Both the position numbers and the translations under genes were made by a program. DNA of 57,885 nt from Verrucomicrobiota bacterium (GTDB lineage: Bacteria > Verrucomicrobiota > Verrucomicrobiia > Chthoniobacterales > UBA6821), in NCBI GenBank assembly GCA_021413925.1, contig JAIOPL010000005.1, positions 1 through 57,885 of the forward strand, in the 5' to 3' direction. The first letter of the stretch is position 1. Every line of letters begins with the position of its first letter. The notes under the pieces are model-generated. The model was given only the letters and a program-made list of their open reading frames with translations, made no database searches and had not been told where the DNA came from. Below, piece after piece: positions 36,915-55,748 of this stretch.

Positions 36915-38624
36915 TTAGTGGGACGACTTGCGTGCCCAACGCTCGGTGTCTGCGTACAGGATGCATTCGCCGTTAATCGGCAGCGGAGTGAAGCTCTTCA
37001 GCAGGAAATCATTAATATTCACGGTCCGCATGATGACGGGACCCCAGTCTTTGTAAGAACCCTTGAGGAGATCGATAAAGGACTCGCCTGCAGAGATTGG
37101 AGTTAGATAGAGGCCGACGATCGGCGTGCCAAGGCTTCCGAAATCCGAGATCTCGTTGAACTGCCTGACTGTTTCTGGAATCAGCAGGCACTTCCTGTTG
37201 GCGTACCAGGCAACTGCCCAAGGCATGTCCGAGGAGAGGAGCTCTTGGGGCTTGAACCAGTTTTGAAGGACCGAAATGAAGGGCGGCACATAAGGGGGCC
37301 ACTGGATGCGTGCCTGCTGTCCGGTTAGCAGGGTGAGGATCATCGGAATTCCGGAAATCAGGAAAATTGCGGTCAGGAAGGCGATGCGGAGGGCCTTCAG
37401 GCTGATGTTAAGCCTGTTCCAAAGCACCAGGATGAATGCCGTTCCGAAGAGGATGAAAATGGGGATAAAAATCACGTGCAGCTGGTTGCCCGACACTGCT
37501 CCCTTCACACCGAAGAGTGCCATGCCCAGTGTGAGACCAATCCACATGATCAGAATCACCCATCGCCAGACCGCAGCGGCTGGATTCTTGAACGGATGAA
37601 GAAGCGAGATAAAGAAGGCGACGACGGTGATGTTCAGTCCGAGGTACTCCCAGAGATGCGATGCCTGATCGAGAAGGCCAGACCTGATCTTGCTTGCCAT
37701 GCCTCCGCCCAGGGTCAGGCCGGTATTCACTCCACGCATGACAGACTGCTCCGTAACGCCCGCTCCCGCCAATGCCATGTAGATGGAAAGGCCGAAGGGG
37801 TTGCCGCAGACAGAATAGTTGCGAAGCAGCCAGGGAAGCACTGTCAGCAGATAGATGAGAAAGGGGACGAGAAAGGTCACGACCCGCGACCGGAATGCAA
37901 AAAGGCAGAAAGCCAAAAACCCCGGAACCAAGAAGAAGGTGACTCCATGGGTCAGGGACATCAGGCCGAGACCGAAGGCACCGCCTCCGAGCCAGGCATA
38001 GACTGTGAGGTGGTTCTCTTCTTCCTCCGCATTCAGGGCCTTCAGGGCACAGAGACAGACCAAACCGAACAGCACGATCAGGAAAAGCTGGGGCAGTCCT
38101 GCCAGGGCGTACTGCCAGAGGAGGTCGGTCACGAGAAGGAGTCCGGCTCCTATCAGGGCTAGTGTCCTATCGAAGAGCAGGGTTCCCACAAAATACCAGA
38201 CCAGAACACCCAGCAGGAGGAGAACGATGCCGAGTGCCGCGATGGCCCGGTCACCCATGCTGAGTGTGTCCGTCGGCTCCATCGCGATTCTTTTCTTTAC
38301 CGGAAAGAGAGCTGCCGCCTCTGCTAGCGGGTAAAGAGGGGCATTGTAGAAATCGGGGAAATTGCCGGAGGGAACCTTGCGAGCCGTGTCGGTAAGTTGA
38401 CGGATGGCCAGCGGACGGATGTAGCGGGTCGTGAATCCTTCGCCGGAGATGAGCGACCGGGCAATCTGGGCCTGATCCATCGCCTGCTCGGTACCGAGTC
38501 CCTTGAAATGCATCAGGAGATAAACGATGCAGAGCCCTATGACGACGACAGCAATCATGCCGATCTTGAGCACCTTGGCTATGAAGCCGGAGTCGATGTC
38601 ACGTACTGTTTCCTGGAGTGCCAT
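36915..38624 (-). CDS. GT39-like glycosyltransferase-type membrane protein
   Basis: A 569-residue integral membrane protein with about eleven or twelve hydrophobic helices. A first large loop near residues 35-110 contains 'MDQAQIARSLISGEGFTTRYIRPL', the kind of periplasmic loop (with an acidic residue after the first helix) found in GT-C or dolichyl-phosphate mannosyltransferase-like proteins (PMT/GT39). A C-terminal soluble segment of about 90 residues follows. It probably transfers a sugar from a polyprenyl carrier onto an envelope acceptor, with the substrate unknown. It lies 18 bp after the NtrC-type gene in the same direction. Confidence 0.65.
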   Translation of the reverse strand: MALQETVRDIDSGFIAKVLKIGMIAVVVIGLCIVYLLMHFKGLGTEQAMDQAQIARSLISGEGFTTRYIRPLAIRQLTDTARKVPSGNFPDFYNAPLYPLAEAAALFPVKKRIAMEPTDTLSMGDRAIAALGIVLLLLGVLVWYFVGTLLFDRTLALIGAGLLLVTDLLWQYALAGLPQLFLIVLFGLVCLCALKALNAEEEENHLTVYAWLGGGAFGLGLMSLTHGVTFFLVPGFLAFCLFAFRSRVVTFLVPFLIYLLTVLPWLLRNYSVCGNPFGLSIYMALAGAGVTEQSVMRGVNTGLTLGGGMASKIRSGLLDQASHLWEYLGLNITVVAFFISLLHPFKNPAAAVWRWVILIMWIGLTLGMALFGVKGAVSGNQLHVIFIPIFILFGTAFILVLWNRLNISLKALRIAFLTAIFLISGIPMILTLLTGQQARIQWPPYVPPFISVLQNWFKPQELLSSDMPWAVAWYANRKCLLIPETVRQFNEISDFGSLGTPIVGLYLTPISAGESFIDLLKGSYKDWGPVIMRTVNINDFLLKSFTPLPINGECILYADTERWARKSSH

Positions 38625-38641: not shown

Positions 38642-39991
38642 TTATTTCAGGGATTTAGTGATGCCAAATTGAGCGAGATGACGATGGAGGGTGCGACGGC
38701 TGATGCCGAGCTTTTTTGCCGCCATTGTGCGATTACCGGCGCACTCTTCCAGGGCTTTGTGAATCGTTGTGGCCTCAATTCTGGCAAGGTTCATTTCATT
38801 CTCCCCGGGAGCAGATCCTGCGAGAATGCGTAGAGATGACGGGAGATCTCCCAGTTTGAGTTCACTGCCGTTTCCTAACACCACGGCATGCTCCACAGCG
38901 GCGCGAAGTTCGCGGATATTACCGGGCCAGGTATGGGTCTCCAGTGCCGCTATGGCCTCGGGGGTGAAGAGCCTCTCGGGCTTGTCATGCTCCTTGGCCA
39001 TTTCCTTGAGAAAGGCACTCGTGAGCAGGGGAATATCTTCCGGGTGACTCCGTAGCGGGGGCATCATGAGAGGCACCACATTCAGCCGGAAGAACAGGTC
39101 TTCACGGAATGTCCCGTCGCTCACCATGGCCGCCAGATCCTTGTTGGTTGCGGCAATCAGTCGCACGTCGGAGTTCAGGGTCTGGTTGCCCCCGACTCTC
39201 TCGAAACTCTTCTCACCAAGCACTCGCAGAATCTTGACCTGGACGGTGGGGTCGATTTCGCCGATCTCATCAAGGAAAAGAGTGCCGCCGGCAGCCTGTT
39301 CGAAGCGCCCGATCCTGCGCTCCCCCGCGCCGGTGAAGGCACCCTTCTCATGGCCGAAGAGCTCGCTCTCCAGAAGCTGAGGGGAAAGTGAGGCGCAATG
39401 GACGGCAACAAACGGCTTCTCGGCCCGGTTACTCAGGGCATGGATCGCCTGAGCAGCAACTTCCTTACCCGTTCCGCTCTCCCCTTGGATGAGAACGGTG
39501 GCCTTGCTGGGTGCCACCTGCCTGATGGTCTCGAAGACCCTTTCCATTACCGGGGAGCGGCCGATCATTCTGTCGGGTGTCCGCGTTTTGCGCACTTCCT
39601 GACGGAGTTCTAGATTCTCCGCTTGCATCGTTCGTTCGCGTAGGGCGCGCCGGATCAGCATTTCCAAACGGTCGATATTCACCGGCTTGGTCACGAAATC
39701 ATAGGCCCCCTGCTTCATGGCTTCCACGGCGGTATCCACCGATCCGTAAGCCGTCATCATGATGCAGATCGGCGGATCGGAGCGCTTCAGAATCTTCTTC
39801 ATCAGATCCATGCCGTTGTCGGCGCCGATCTTCAGATCGGTGAGGACCAGATCGGGAGGGTCTGCCTCCATCAAGGCCAAAGCTCCTGCTTCATCAGCCG
39901 CCAGCGAGACATCAAAGCGCTCTTCCAGCACGGCTCTCAACCCATCGCGAGTGTTCTTTTCGTCGTCGACGATCAGGATAGTCTGCTTCAT
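38642..39991 (-). CDS. NtrC-family sigma-54 response regulator
   Basis: A 449-residue activator with three domains. The receiver (1-120) has 'TILIVDDEKNTRDGL' and the phospho-aspartate in 'PDLVLTDLKIG'. The AAA+ sigma-54 domain has Walker A 'GESGTGKE', the contact loop 'ESELFGHEKGAFTGA' and Walker B 'GGTLFLDEIGE'. The Fis-type HTH is 'NRTMAAKKLGISRRTLHRHL'. ATG 39991 is preferred to an upstream in-frame start. No histidine kinase gene is adjacent, so it is an orphan regulator here. The canonical sigma-54 promoter before amt (50082) is one possible target, but this is speculation. Confidence 0.93.
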   Translation of the reverse strand: MKQTILIVDDEKNTRDGLRAVLEERFDVSLAADEAGALALMEADPPDLVLTDLKIGADNGMDLMKKILKRSDPPICIMMTAYGSVDTAVEAMKQGAYDFVTKPVNIDRLEMLIRRALRERTMQAENLELRQEVRKTRTPDRMIGRSPVMERVFETIRQVAPSKATVLIQGESGTGKEVAAQAIHALSNRAEKPFVAVHCASLSPQLLESELFGHEKGAFTGAGERRIGRFEQAAGGTLFLDEIGEIDPTVQVKILRVLGEKSFERVGGNQTLNSDVRLIAATNKDLAAMVSDGTFREDLFFRLNVVPLMMPPLRSHPEDIPLLTSAFLKEMAKEHDKPERLFTPEAIAALETHTWPGNIRELRAAVEHAVVLGNGSELKLGDLPSSLRILAGSAPGENEMNLARIEATTIHKALEECAGNRTMAAKKLGISRRTLHRHLAQFGITKSLK

Positions 39992-40041
39992 GGAGGGCGA
40001 GACAGATTGTCGCAACAATCCCGGTTTTGCAATCTTTACTC

Positions 40042-47493: not shown

Positions 47494-49296
47494 TTAAATT
47501 TCCTCCGCGTTCTCCGCCACTTCAACGGCTCCGCGCGAGATGTCTATTCTGCTCTCCCCGAAGACCCCGTGATGGGCTTCGGCTTCCTTGCAGAGGGAGG
47601 CATAGAGTCCGCCTGCGGCAAGGAGTGTCTCGTGATTGCCCCTCTCGACGATGCGTCCCCTCTCCAGCACCAGGATCTGGTCGGCATGGCGGACGGTTGA
47701 GAGTCGGTGGGCGATCACGAAGCTGGTACGACCCTCCAGCAAGTGGGCTAGTGCCTCTTGGATCAGACGTTCCGTCGTGTTGTCCACGCTGGCAGTCGCC
47801 TCGTCGAGGACAAGGATCGGCGGGTTCTTCAGCAGGGCGCGCGCGATGGAGAGACGCTGTTTCTCACCGACGCTCAGCTTGACGCCGCGTTCGCCGAGTT
47901 GCGTGTGGAGCCCCTTAGGAAGACGGCGTATGAAGGCTTCTGCATTCGCGGCGGCTAGCGCTGCCCACATCTCCTCCTCAGTGGCATCGGGTTTTGCAAT
48001 GAGTAGATTGTCGGCAGTGGTGCCGTTGAAGAGGAAGCTCTCCTGCGTCACCATGGCGACGGAGCGGCGGAGTTCGCTCAGGGGGATCTCACAGATCGGG
48101 CGCCCATCCAGCAGGATCTCTCCGGAGCTGAGCTCGTAGAATCTGCTGAGCAGGTGGACAAGCGAGGTCTTTCCTGCACCGGTGGGTCCCACCAGCGCGA
48201 TCATCTCGCCTGGCTTGGCATGAAGAGAGATGTCATGGAGGACAGCGGTCCCGGCCTGATACTCGAACCCCACGGACTCGTAACGGACATCACCCTTCAG
48301 GGAGATAACCTCAGAATTCGAAGAAGGATTCCTCCAGCCCTCTTCCAATGGGGCATCCAGAATCGAGAAGACCCGTTCGCTCGCAGCACGTCCCGCCTGA
48401 AGCAACTGGTTGAGGGAATGGAGGCGTCCGACTGGTTCGTAGAGATAGCGTGCCAGCAGGAGGAAGGCGACCAGGACACTCAGCTCCATCGTTCCATGGA
48501 GAACCTGCAGACCTCCCACGGCAAGGATGAGGATCATTCCCGCGTTCCCTAGGAAGTTCATTGTCGGGCTGTAGATTGCCCAATAGCGCATCACGATGAG
48601 AGAGGCTTTCTTGAGAGCTTCGCTTGATGCATTGAATCGTGCGTGTTCCCTCTCCTCGGTGGCGTAGGTCTTGATCTGGCGGATCCCGTCGAGGTTATCG
48701 TGAAGAAGGGAGTTCAGGGCCGAGGTAGCCTTGCGTGTGGCACGGTAGCGCTTTCCGGCAGTCAGCGTGTAGAAGAGTGCCCCGAGAGCCAGGAAGGGAA
48801 CGGGCGTCAAGGCAGCCAGCATCAGGACCATGCTGTAATGGGCCATGAGAACCAGGACGATGGCGATCTGGAGCAGGGCCACCGTACCTTGCTCGATGCC
48901 GTCGATCAGGACCCGCTCCACGTTGGTCACATCCTCCACGAGCCGGGTCATGATGTCGCCCGTCGCTCTGTTGTCGAACCATGGGAGGGGCAGCATCTGG
49001 ATCCGGGCATAGAGATCGCTCCGGAGGTCAAAGATCACCCGCTGCTCGAAGTGATTGTTCAGCAGGATACGGAGGCAGTTCAGAAGATCCTGGGCGAAGA
49101 ATGCCGCGAGACCCATTGCGATCAGAGGAATCAGCTTTTCCGGGTGATGCTGTTTGAGAACGACTTCGATGACCTGCTGGGTGACGGCAGGAAAGACCGC
49201 CACCATCAGCGTGCCGACGATCGCGCAGAACATCGTAGCCGCCGCCATCCAAGGATAGCGCGCCGTGTAACCGAAAACTCGTAGCAAAATTCGCAT
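47494..49296 (-). CDS. ABC exporter, MsbA-like half-transporter
   Basis: A 600-residue type IV ABC exporter. A six-helix membrane domain (about residues 15-315) is followed by an ATPase with Walker A 'GPTGAGKTS', Q-loop 'MVTQESFLFNGT', signature 'LSVGEKQRLS', Walker B 'ILVLDEATASVD' and H-loop 'VIAHRLS', all intact. It likely works as a homodimer exporting a lipid or drug-like substrate, which the sequence does not reveal. The last 25 residues are polar and beyond the ATPase. It is convergent to nothing nearby and stands alone after the ars operon. Confidence 0.9.
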   Translation of the reverse strand: MRILLRVFGYTARYPWMAAATMFCAIVGTLMVAVFPAVTQQVIEVVLKQHHPEKLIPLIAMGLAAFFAQDLLNCLRILLNNHFEQRVIFDLRSDLYARIQMLPLPWFDNRATGDIMTRLVEDVTNVERVLIDGIEQGTVALLQIAIVLVLMAHYSMVLMLAALTPVPFLALGALFYTLTAGKRYRATRKATSALNSLLHDNLDGIRQIKTYATEEREHARFNASSEALKKASLIVMRYWAIYSPTMNFLGNAGMILILAVGGLQVLHGTMELSVLVAFLLLARYLYEPVGRLHSLNQLLQAGRAASERVFSILDAPLEEGWRNPSSNSEVISLKGDVRYESVGFEYQAGTAVLHDISLHAKPGEMIALVGPTGAGKTSLVHLLSRFYELSSGEILLDGRPICEIPLSELRRSVAMVTQESFLFNGTTADNLLIAKPDATEEEMWAALAAANAEAFIRRLPKGLHTQLGERGVKLSVGEKQRLSIARALLKNPPILVLDEATASVDNTTERLIQEALAHLLEGRTSFVIAHRLSTVRHADQILVLERGRIVERGNHETLLAAGGLYASLCKEAEAHHGVFGESRIDISRGAVEVAENAEEI

Positions 49297-50146: not shown

Positions 50147-52020
<1,874 letters not shown>

Positions 52021-52107: not shown

Positions 52108-52509
<402 letters not shown>

Positions 52510-52695: not shown

Positions 52696-54321
52696 ATGAT
52701 TCACTCGCGCCATCATCCCGAACAAGGCCCGTGGACGCGCCTTAAAAGCGCACTGGATCTTGATCCCCGTGACGTGGGGATGATCCTCGTTTTTGCCCTT
52801 TGCGTGGGACTGCTCTCCATCGCGGCCCCTGTCGCGATCGAGACCCTGGTGAATACTGTCGCGTTTGGCGTCCTGCTCTGGCCAGTGATTGCCCTGGCCC
52901 TGGTGATGTTGACGCTGCTCCTCATCTCGGCCTCGCTCAAGGCGCTCCAGTTCCTTGTCGCGGAGTATCTCCAACGGCGCCTCTTTGTCCGTTACGCCGA
53001 GAAGTTCTCCGCACATTTCTCGCGCGCCGAGATCTCAAGCTTTGAGGGCCGCAATGCGGGCGAGCTTGCGGATCGTTTCTTCGAGGTCTCCTCGGTTCAG
53101 AAGGCCTTGTCGGGACTCCTTGTCGACGGTGTTGGCATCGTGATGATCACGATCGTCGGCCTTATCCTTCTCTCCTGCTATCACCCCTATCTGCTGAGTT
53201 TCGCCCTGATCCTTGTGGTTGCGGTGGTTGTGGTGACCATTGTTTTTGGGAGGGGTGGTGTCTCCTCCAGTATTGAGGAGAGTTATGCAAAATTCGATCT
53301 CGCTGGATGGATCGGCGAAATCGCCCGCTCTCCCTCCCTCTTCCGTGCAGGTGCAATGCAGGATGTGGCCCTCAACCGAGCCCGCGCTCATACGGCCGAC
53401 TACATCGCAGCCAGAAAGCAGCACTTCCGTGTGGTCTGGCGGCAGACACTCTTCGTGATTTTCTTGGAAGCCATCGCAAGCACCCTTTTGCTCGGGCTTG
53501 GCGGATGGTTGGTGATTAATCGCCAACTCACGCTCGGTCAGTTGGTCGCTTCGGAGCTGATCGTGACTCTGGTGCTGGCTTCACTGGCCAAGACCGGAAA
53601 ACATCTCGAGTCCTTCTATGACCTTGAGGCATCGCTTGATAAGCTCGGGGTCATCGACAGCTTCACCCTGGAGCCCAAGGGAGGGGAAATCTTGCTCACA
53701 TCCGGAAAGCCACTCTCCGTTAAGGCAAATTGCCCCGGCCCCTCAGGAGAAATCTTCTTGGATGCCCCTTCCGGTTCTAAGATCGCCCTGCTTGGTGCTC
53801 CTGGAAGCGGCAAGTCACAGTTCATGGAAACCCTCTCCCTCCTGCGCGCTCCGGAGGGGGCGCGGGTCACCTTTGACGGGATCAGTTCTCAGGCCTTGGA
53901 TCGGGCCGCAGCCCGCAGACTGATTGCCAACGCCGGACGCGGGGAGGTGTTTTCCGGGACGATCGTTGAGAACCTCCGTGCCGGCAACGCGGAGATCGGC
54001 GTCGAGGAGATCCGTGAAGCCCTCAAGGATGCGGGTCTATCCGCCCGTATTGCCTCGCTCCCTTTGGGGATGGCCACACCTCTCTCCTCCACGGGATGGC
54101 CGCTCTCCACCTCCGAGTCAGTCCTGCTCGGTATCGCACGAGCCATCTTGGCCAAACCCCGCCTCTTGCTGCTTGACGGAACCCTCGATCTCCTCGATCC
54201 CGCTCTGCATTCCGAGCTGATCGCAAAACTCTCCTCTCCCGACGCACCCTGGACCCTGATCGTGGCCACGACCAGGCGCGATGTCGCCGAGCGCATCGGC
54301 ACCACCGTCACGTTACCATGA
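52696..54321 (+). CDS. ABC exporter subunit with degenerate ATPase
   Basis: A 541-residue half-transporter like those of type I secretion. A membrane domain with about six helices (residues about 25-310) is followed by an ABC domain. Walker A is intact ('GAPGSGKS', about 366), but the Q-loop glutamine is lost ('NAGRGEVFSG'), the signature is 'LSTSES' instead of LSGGQ, the Walker B glutamate is glycine ('LLLLDGTLD', about 490), and the H-loop histidine is threonine ('VATTRRD'). ATP could bind but hydrolysis is unlikely. The HlyD-like gene overlaps its stop codon. Confidence 0.85.
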   Translation: MIHSRHHPEQGPWTRLKSALDLDPRDVGMILVFALCVGLLSIAAPVAIETLVNTVAFGVLLWPVIALALVMLTLLLISASLKALQFLVAEYLQRRLFVRYAEKFSAHFSRAEISSFEGRNAGELADRFFEVSSVQKALSGLLVDGVGIVMITIVGLILLSCYHPYLLSFALILVVAVVVVTIVFGRGGVSSSIEESYAKFDLAGWIGEIARSPSLFRAGAMQDVALNRARAHTADYIAARKQHFRVVWRQTLFVIFLEAIASTLLLGLGGWLVINRQLTLGQLVASELIVTLVLASLAKTGKHLESFYDLEASLDKLGVIDSFTLEPKGGEILLTSGKPLSVKANCPGPSGEIFLDAPSGSKIALLGAPGSGKSQFMETLSLLRAPEGARVTFDGISSQALDRAAARRLIANAGRGEVFSGTIVENLRAGNAEIGVEEIREALKDAGLSARIASLPLGMATPLSSTGWPLSTSESVLLGIARAILAKPRLLLLDGTLDLLDPALHSELIAKLSSPDAPWTLIVATTRRDVAERIGTTVTLP

Positions 54322-55748
54322 GCAGCAGCCAACCGCATGACGAGGGCTGCAAGCCGGCTGATCCAGTAACACGGGAGGATCTCACGCGCGCGACGGAGAC
54401 TCCTCCGATTGTTCTTCGTATTTCCAAGATCGTGCTCTGGTGCATGGCTGCCTCCCCCTTTGTGCTGGCATTTGTCCCTTGGCAGCAAACTGTGCAGGGT
54501 CGCGGCACCGTGATCGCCTATTCGCCTGTCGAGCGCTCCCAAGTGCTGACGGCCCGGATTCCAGGCCAAGTGCGCAAGTGGCACGTCGTCGAGGGATCCA
54601 TCGTCAAGAAAGGCGATCCCGTGGTCGACCTTGAGGACAATGATCCGGATCTCGGCACCAGGCTGACTGCTCAGTTGGAGTTTCTCAGAGGACGTCTCTT
54701 GGCCGGTAAACAGGAAGTGGCTGAACTAAGTGGCGCCGCTACAGCCACGGAGGCTGCCCGTGAATCAGCTGTTAATGCCGCCAAAGCCAATCTTGAATCA
54801 ACCCGCAAGGCGATCGAGGTGGCTGATCATGTCCTCTCCAACGCCCAGTACTCCAAGACCTTCGAGCAGACCCGTTTTGACATGATCGATAAGCTCCATT
54901 CCAGCGGAACGCTGGGGGCGATCGAGAGCAAGCTCTCACGCGAGGAGGCCAAGCTGCGCATTGACCGCGCCTCCATCGACGTGAGACGAGCAGCCGCAGA
55001 GTTAGATCGCTCGAAGGCCGCCTACCTCACTCAAGAGGCACAAGTCCTTCAGACGGATGCCGCGGGAATCTCTTCGATCGCGGTTGCAAGAAGCAATTTC
55101 CGGAAGGGAGAGCAGGCGCTTTTCACCACGGAACGTGAGGTGCAGGACATCGAGAACCGGGTGGAGCGCTTCAAGTCGCGGCACGTGGTGGCTCCCTGCG
55201 ATGGAGTCGTCTTCCGAGTTCACGCCAATGTGGGCGGTGGTGGACAGTACCTCAAGGAAGGGGACGAACTCTGCACGATCATTCCCGACACAAAGGACCG
55301 GGTCGTCGAGCTTACGCTCGACGGACGCGATGCTCCTCTGGTCCTCGCTTACGCTCATCGTAAGGGATCTCTGCCACAGGCACGCCTTCAGTTTGAGGGG
55401 TGGCCGGCCATCCTCTTCTCCGGATTCCCCGATGTATCGATCGGTACCTTCGGAGGAAAAGTCCGGCAGATTGATCAGGCGAGTGGCGCGACCGGTGGAT
55501 TCCGAATCCTAATCGAACCAGAGCACCATGTTCCGGGTGATGACTGGCCCGACTCTAATTTCTTACGACAAGGAAATCAGGTGGTGGGTTGGGTCTTTCT
55601 CAATCGGGTGCCGCTCGGATACGAGATTTGGCGTCGTCTGAACGGCTTTCCGCCAGTCCTCCCTCCCACTTCCAAGGAGAAGAAATCCGGCTCTCCGGAC
55701 AACAAGGAAGAGGAGAAAGCGAAAGCGCCTAAGATCAAGGTTGGCTGA
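54318..55748 (+). CDS. HlyD-family periplasmic adaptor
   Basis: A 476-residue membrane-fusion protein. One N-terminal membrane helix (about residues 36-53, 'IVLWCMAASPFVLAFVPW') is followed by a lipoyl-like half-motif ('ARIPGQVRKWHVVEGSIVKKGDPV'), a long coiled-coil hairpin (about 115-285) and the second lipoyl half ('VVAPCDGVVFRVHANVGGGGQYLKEGDEL'). A beta-barrel and a C-terminal Lys/Glu-rich tail follow. It starts in an ATGA overlap with the ABC gene. It should link the inner-membrane exporter to an outer-membrane channel. No TolC homologue gene lies in the window. Confidence 0.9.
   Translation: MSSSQPHDEGCKPADPVTREDLTRATETPPIVLRISKIVLWCMAASPFVLAFVPWQQTVQGRGTVIAYSPVERSQVLTARIPGQVRKWHVVEGSIVKKGDPVVDLEDNDPDLGTRLTAQLEFLRGRLLAGKQEVAELSGAATATEAARESAVNAAKANLESTRKAIEVADHVLSNAQYSKTFEQTRFDMIDKLHSSGTLGAIESKLSREEAKLRIDRASIDVRRAAAELDRSKAAYLTQEAQVLQTDAAGISSIAVARSNFRKGEQALFTTEREVQDIENRVERFKSRHVVAPCDGVVFRVHANVGGGGQYLKEGDELCTIIPDTKDRVVELTLDGRDAPLVLAYAHRKGSLPQARLQFEGWPAILFSGFPDVSIGTFGGKVRQIDQASGATGGFRILIEPEHHVPGDDWPDSNFLRQGNQVVGWVFLNRVPLGYEIWRRLNGFPPVLPPTSKEKKSGSPDNKEEEKAKAPKIKVG

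Follow-up and report, generated by a model that had tools for sequence, protein, structure and literature searches.

ATP hydrolysis defines ABC exporters. The described systems that bear on the locus reported here include the HlyB-type type I secretion system (T1SS; HlyB/HlyD/TolC) and exporters with one degenerate ATP site, namely the heterodimers TM287/288, TAP1/2, and MsRv1273c/72c and the single-chain Pdr5. In the latter group an NBD lacks the catalytic Glu/His, and one canonical site is retained through the partner NBD or half; the degenerate site consists of the Walker/H side of one NBD and the signature of the other (PMC7756269). Two ABC proteins, RtxB and RtxE, are required by the MARTX system (PMC3034196). 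A SecA2-linked type-I-like locus in Planctomycetes and others encodes a secondary SecA_DEAD protein along with membrane proteins that are M50-like, and contains no ABC homologue (PMC4452313). In Blastomonas fulva, the "ABC-type tripartite pump" HlyBD2-OMP2 was called an ordinary HlyB efflux pump from its sequence only, with the best match reported in N. aromaticivorans (PMC9505733). In the literature that we searched, no ABC-HlyD-TolC family with a dead ATPase is described.

The gene pair and its nucleotide-binding domain

The locus is located in a 57,885-nucleotide stretch (the window) of contig JAIOPL010000005.1, from a 2.4 Mb genome (G000) of the Spartobacteria/Chthoniobacterales. On the plus strand, a gene for a putative pseudo-ABC exporter subunit (52696..54321, 541 aa; ORF call, Pfam, motif alignment, and AF2 model) is joined by an ATGA overlap to a gene for an HlyD-family periplasmic adaptor (54318..55748, 476 aa; Pfam and family alignment), and both reading frames are intact. 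The first-pass annotation had described an intact ABC gene coupled to a full HlyD adaptor. The intact gene was confirmed, the overlap agrees with the coupling, and the length of the adaptor agrees with its description as full; however, the adaptor, which matches Pfam HlyD_3, reached only 46.4 bits against the curated type I model TIGR01843, whose cut-off is 208.7 bits. In the family alignment, the adaptor carries a family-specific C-terminal motif, FEGWP...GTFGG...FLRQG...WVFLNRVPLGYEIWRRLNGFPP.

The ABC protein has the ABCB-type architecture of a membrane domain (TMD) followed by an NBD. Pfam ABC_membrane matches residues 28-295 and ABC_tran residues 355-494 (44.9 and 44.0 bits, both above the cut-off), and the layout comprises a TMD at about residues 24-321 and a degenerate NBD at about residues 340-541. 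The AF2 model (mean pLDDT 82.6) has a normal ABCB fold; its top fold match is HlyB (8dck_A, TM-score 0.90 over the query), and the fold matches PCAT1 as well. The protein nonetheless fell short of the cut-offs of the T1SS ABC models (TIGR03375, 104 vs. 693 bits; TIGR01846, 106 vs. 726; TIGR01842, 85 vs. 510), and scores against the NHLM/NHLP bacteriocin exporter models were likewise far below the cut-offs (TIGR03796, 152 vs. 853 bits; TIGR03797, 135 vs. 709; TIGR03794, 35 vs. 156).

Motifs were called from an alignment of the window protein with 25 canonical exporters. Walker A is kept (LLGAPGSGKS, residues 365-374, 53788..53817, with GAPGSGKS starting at G367). The Q-loop region, IANAGRGEVFSGTI (residues 410-423, 53923..53964), contains no Gln: the corresponding column is occupied by R415, and one residue beside R415 is deleted relative to the canonical sequences. 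The signature LSGGQ is replaced by LSTSE (residues 470-474, 54103..54117). Walker B ends in DG (residues 494-495, 54175..54180), in which the Asp, D494, is retained and the position of the catalytic Glu is G495, and the H-loop His is replaced by T526 (54271..54273); all of these positions are on the plus strand. The protein thus lacks all four features by which an active ABC exporter was judged (Q-loop Gln, LSGGQ, Walker B Glu, and H-loop His), exactly as the first-pass annotation had read them. Two further motifs are affected, through deletion of the A-loop segment and replacement of the X-loop GER. The signature variants LSVGE and LSVGQ occur among the controls; all 25, however, retain the Walker A Lys, the Q-loop Gln, the second signature Gly, the Glu, and the His, and the losses in the window protein are therefore not due to chance.

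Extent of the family and conservation of the losses

A collection search with the window protein returned 32 loci, and homologues were found in Verrucomicrobiota, Planctomycetota, Acidobacteriota, Pseudomonadota, and Bacteroidota. Family members scored at least 167 bits against the window protein, whereas the sampled canonical exporters scored at most 119. The family was present in 8 of 387 sampled genomes of Verrucomicrobiota, 29 of 294 of Planctomycetota, 8 of 199 of Acidobacteriota, and, by profile and with a single above-cut-off match counted for each genome, 11 of 398 of Pseudomonadota; plasmid records contributed sphingomonad and Bacteroidota members. The family forms a single clade separate from the 25 canonical exporters (SH-aLRT 100) in a tree whose outgroup consists of exporters from verrucomicrobial relatives only, which does not fix the closest active relative. 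Two members that appeared to consist of a TMD only (L101 and L104) are truncated at contig ends.

An N-terminal domain of some 120-190 aa, missing from the window copy, is present in many relatives (e.g., L047:837-2849 and L044:7485-9674), and in several of them a His/Gly-rich linker follows it. Pfam and PDB sequence searches with this domain gave no match. In Foldseek, the relatives that possess it align over their full length to HlyB and PCAT1, which supports, without proving, a C39-like domain. The longer relatives would share this feature with HlyB-type systems.

Within the genus, the pair is carried by 6 of 16 genomes and missing from the other 10, and is therefore accessory. The patchy presence and the number of catalytic motifs lost could indicate a pseudogene in progress or the remnant of a type I exporter. 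We rejected this explanation, which is highly improbable given the dN/dS values and the conservation of the losses. The ABC reading frame is intact in all six genus copies, and each has the same motif losses, which recur in several phyla with the operon retained. The dN/dS values within the genus are 0.07-0.14 for the ABC gene, 0.07-0.13 for the NBD, and 0.06-0.09 for the HlyD gene; the TMD and NBD are both under strong purifying selection (mostly 0.04-0.14, around 0.1 in both domains). Since the NBD is under such selection, it has some role in the genus. The first-pass annotation had proposed that canonical ATPases in relatives would mark this copy as decaying; the relatives instead share the substitutions, throughout the genus and, for the Q-loop Gln, in nearly all members of the multi-phylum clade.

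Across the 71 aligned members, only one has the full set of Walker A Lys, Q-loop Gln, second signature Gly, Glu, and His, and in 36 the Lys is the only one of the five that is left. An early-branching acidobacterial group (L108-L112) has the Lys, Asp, Glu, and His and an LSRGQ signature; because only the Q-loop Gln is lost, proteins of this type could still be weak ATPases. Other acidobacterial members retain the Glu, and both Glu and His are lost in most planctomycete members as well as in the window. Walker A and Walker B are both gone in sphingomonads and other Pseudomonadota (L206-L215, L218, and L219), despite which the ABC-HlyD-TolC operon is kept. Pfam ABC_tran is no longer detected in L215, L218, and L220, of which two are sphingomonads and one belongs to Bacteroidota. 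The loss of the ATPase motifs looks stepwise.

The Walker A Lys is retained in 60 of the 71 members and the Walker B Asp in 66, which, together with the selection on the NBD in the genus, would fit a divergent yet active ATPase in which the roles of the Q-loop, Glu, and His have passed to other residues, or a complex gated by ATP binding alone. We regard either as rather unlikely. The A-loop and X-loop are gone from the window NBD too, and the tree places the loss of Walker A at several points (well-supported branches force at least six label changes, an approximate count because of alignment gaps), with the loss complete in the sphingomonads and the operon retained. Since this protein and most members retain Walker A and the Walker B Asp, ATP binding may have a role, and hydrolysis could still proceed slowly. 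An ATP-binding gate is conceivable in the window lineage because Walker A is kept there; it cannot be general, since the sphingomonads have lost the motif.

The distribution of conservation along the protein also departs from that of canonical exporters. Pairwise identity in the family is 51% for the TMD and 38% for the NBD, with the TMD higher in 99.1% of 2415 pairs; in canonical exporters the values are 38% and 55%, and the TMD is higher in 4.3% of 300 pairs. These pairs are not independent, though the contrast between the two groups is large. The TMD was also the more similar domain in 120 of 120 pairs of an additional member set. As judged from these alignments, TMD and NBD conservation is inverted relative to canonical exporters. 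Near-invariant, family-specific polar residues of the TMD are R99, Q135, K136, S196, K199, H243, Q250, E287, Y308, and D/E309. Of these, E287 lies in TM6 (53554..53556, plus strand); the column is Glu in 84 of 86 members and Leu, Arg, or Phe in most canonical exporters.

The operon and the proposed complex

An HlyD gene of the same family adjoins the ABC gene in 31 of 33 loci, in 20 of 20 further genomes, and in 13 of 13 Pseudomonadota and Bacteroidota genomes or records. In 23 of the 33 loci and 19 of the 20 further genomes, an OEP/TolC gene adjoins the pair. The make-up of the operon is constant: the dead ABC gene, the HlyD adaptor, and usually a TolC-type channel. No TolC-type/OEP gene is adjacent in the genus of the window or in its nearest outside relative (L043). 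Away from the pair, G000 encodes four OEP proteins of a generic kind, and a search of G000 for a dedicated TolC with the family OEP profile gave a single weak, partial hit.

The gene order, ABC-HlyD-(OEP), and the fold are those of HlyB-type systems. In contrast to these systems, the family lacks the catalytic NBD motifs and conserves its TMD more than its NBD, and the window copy has neither the C39-like domain nor a conserved substrate gene nearby. The three-gene order and the gene sizes of our sphingomonad loci resemble those of HlyBD2-OMP2 (PMC9505733), and we consider it likely, from the published layout, that HlyBD2-OMP2 belongs to this family. The locus of PMC4452313 is likewise found in PVC bacteria and has HlyD and OEP proteins but no functional ABC ATPase; it differs in possessing SecA_DEAD. 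We rejected a SecA-type motor next door for our family, as a motif scan of the 33 loci found no SecA-like ORF.

Degenerate-site exporters offer another explanation: the pseudo-ABC could pair with a canonical ABC exporter whose gene lies elsewhere and which would carry out the hydrolysis, as in TM287/288, TAP, or RtxB/RtxE. Such heterodimers are well known (PMC7756269), MARTX offers a precedent for two ABC proteins in one system (PMC3034196), and G000 has four other PF00664 exporters. However, no gene other than those of the operon itself, and no ABC gene in particular, is conserved beside it in 53 neighborhoods (33 + 20); the operon therefore appears to encode no substrate and no ABC partner. 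Congeners with the pair have 2-4 other PF00664 exporters and those without it 2-5, which reveals no dedicated partner. Known heterodimers share with our family an NBD without catalytic Glu/His; here, however, the signature is degenerate too, and with both sides of the NBD affected no canonical composite site would form. The constant association with one HlyD family also argues for a self-contained system. For want of a linked ABC gene and of extra exporters, and with both composite-site halves degenerate, we consider a heterodimer unlikely.

It is probable, in our assessment, that the pair supplies the inner-membrane and periplasmic components of a tripartite complex resembling type I secretion, and that its ABC subunit is a pseudo-ATPase. 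This subunit probably forms a homodimer whose TMDs make up a pore, to which the HlyD adaptor would be docked. The outer-membrane channel in the genus of the window may be one of the general TolC-type (OEP) proteins of the genome, most relatives encoding a channel of their own. The NBDs may have been kept as a folded cytoplasmic base or dimerization module, or perhaps as an ATP sensor in the window lineage, where Walker A is kept. If, as we infer from the residues lost, these NBDs do not hydrolyze ATP, export or gating would rest on the conserved TMD and on a source other than the hydrolysis of the subunit itself. Among the three readings offered by the first-pass annotation (a non-hydrolyzing scaffold, a heterodimer partner, and a subunit driven by another energy source), the evidence favors a non-hydrolyzing subunit and another energy source and disfavors the heterodimer.

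A doubtful extension of the pseudo-ATPase reading is that these systems represent a separate energization class of tripartite envelope exporters, whose ABC-fold TMD works without ATP, for example through coupling to the proton motive force via E287, K199, H243, Y308, and D309; such coupling of a pseudo-ABC is speculation. The lineage is of interest in that it spans several phyla and has kept the exporter fold, the adaptor, and usually the outer-membrane channel, while the ATPase motifs were lost repeatedly. If the pseudo-ATPase reading is correct, it provides a natural experiment on the function of the NBD and on the ways in which a type I conduit can be energized or gated, and the present annotation of many members as ABC or HlyB pumps wrongly marks them as ATP-driven.

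Genomic setting

In the window, the pair is flanked by glnK on one side and a divergent transglutaminase-like gene on the other. In G009 (L125), glnK directly adjoins the transglutaminase gene, without the pair. At L039:7023-11963 the pair is flanked by galE and tatD in place of glnK and the transglutaminase gene, and the pair therefore moves as a unit. About 3.4 kb upstream of the pair, the window encodes an MsbA-like ABC exporter that is canonical, its motifs being intact (47494-49296, minus strand); exporters of this kind occur in congeners whether or not they carry the pair.

A single amtB in the window is followed by two tandem P-II (glnK) genes that are nearly identical (51682-52020 and 52108-52509). 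A close relative (L038) has two amtB-glnK pairs, which suggests that a second amtB was lost in the window lineage. A 569-aa ORF without a Pfam match (36915-38624, minus strand) adjoins a sigma-54 response regulator (38642-40018). One contig labelled Proteobacteria (L040, RFPR01000127.1) carries the Spartobacteria locus, 81% identical and with the amtB-glnK synteny preserved, and this record is probably mislabelled.
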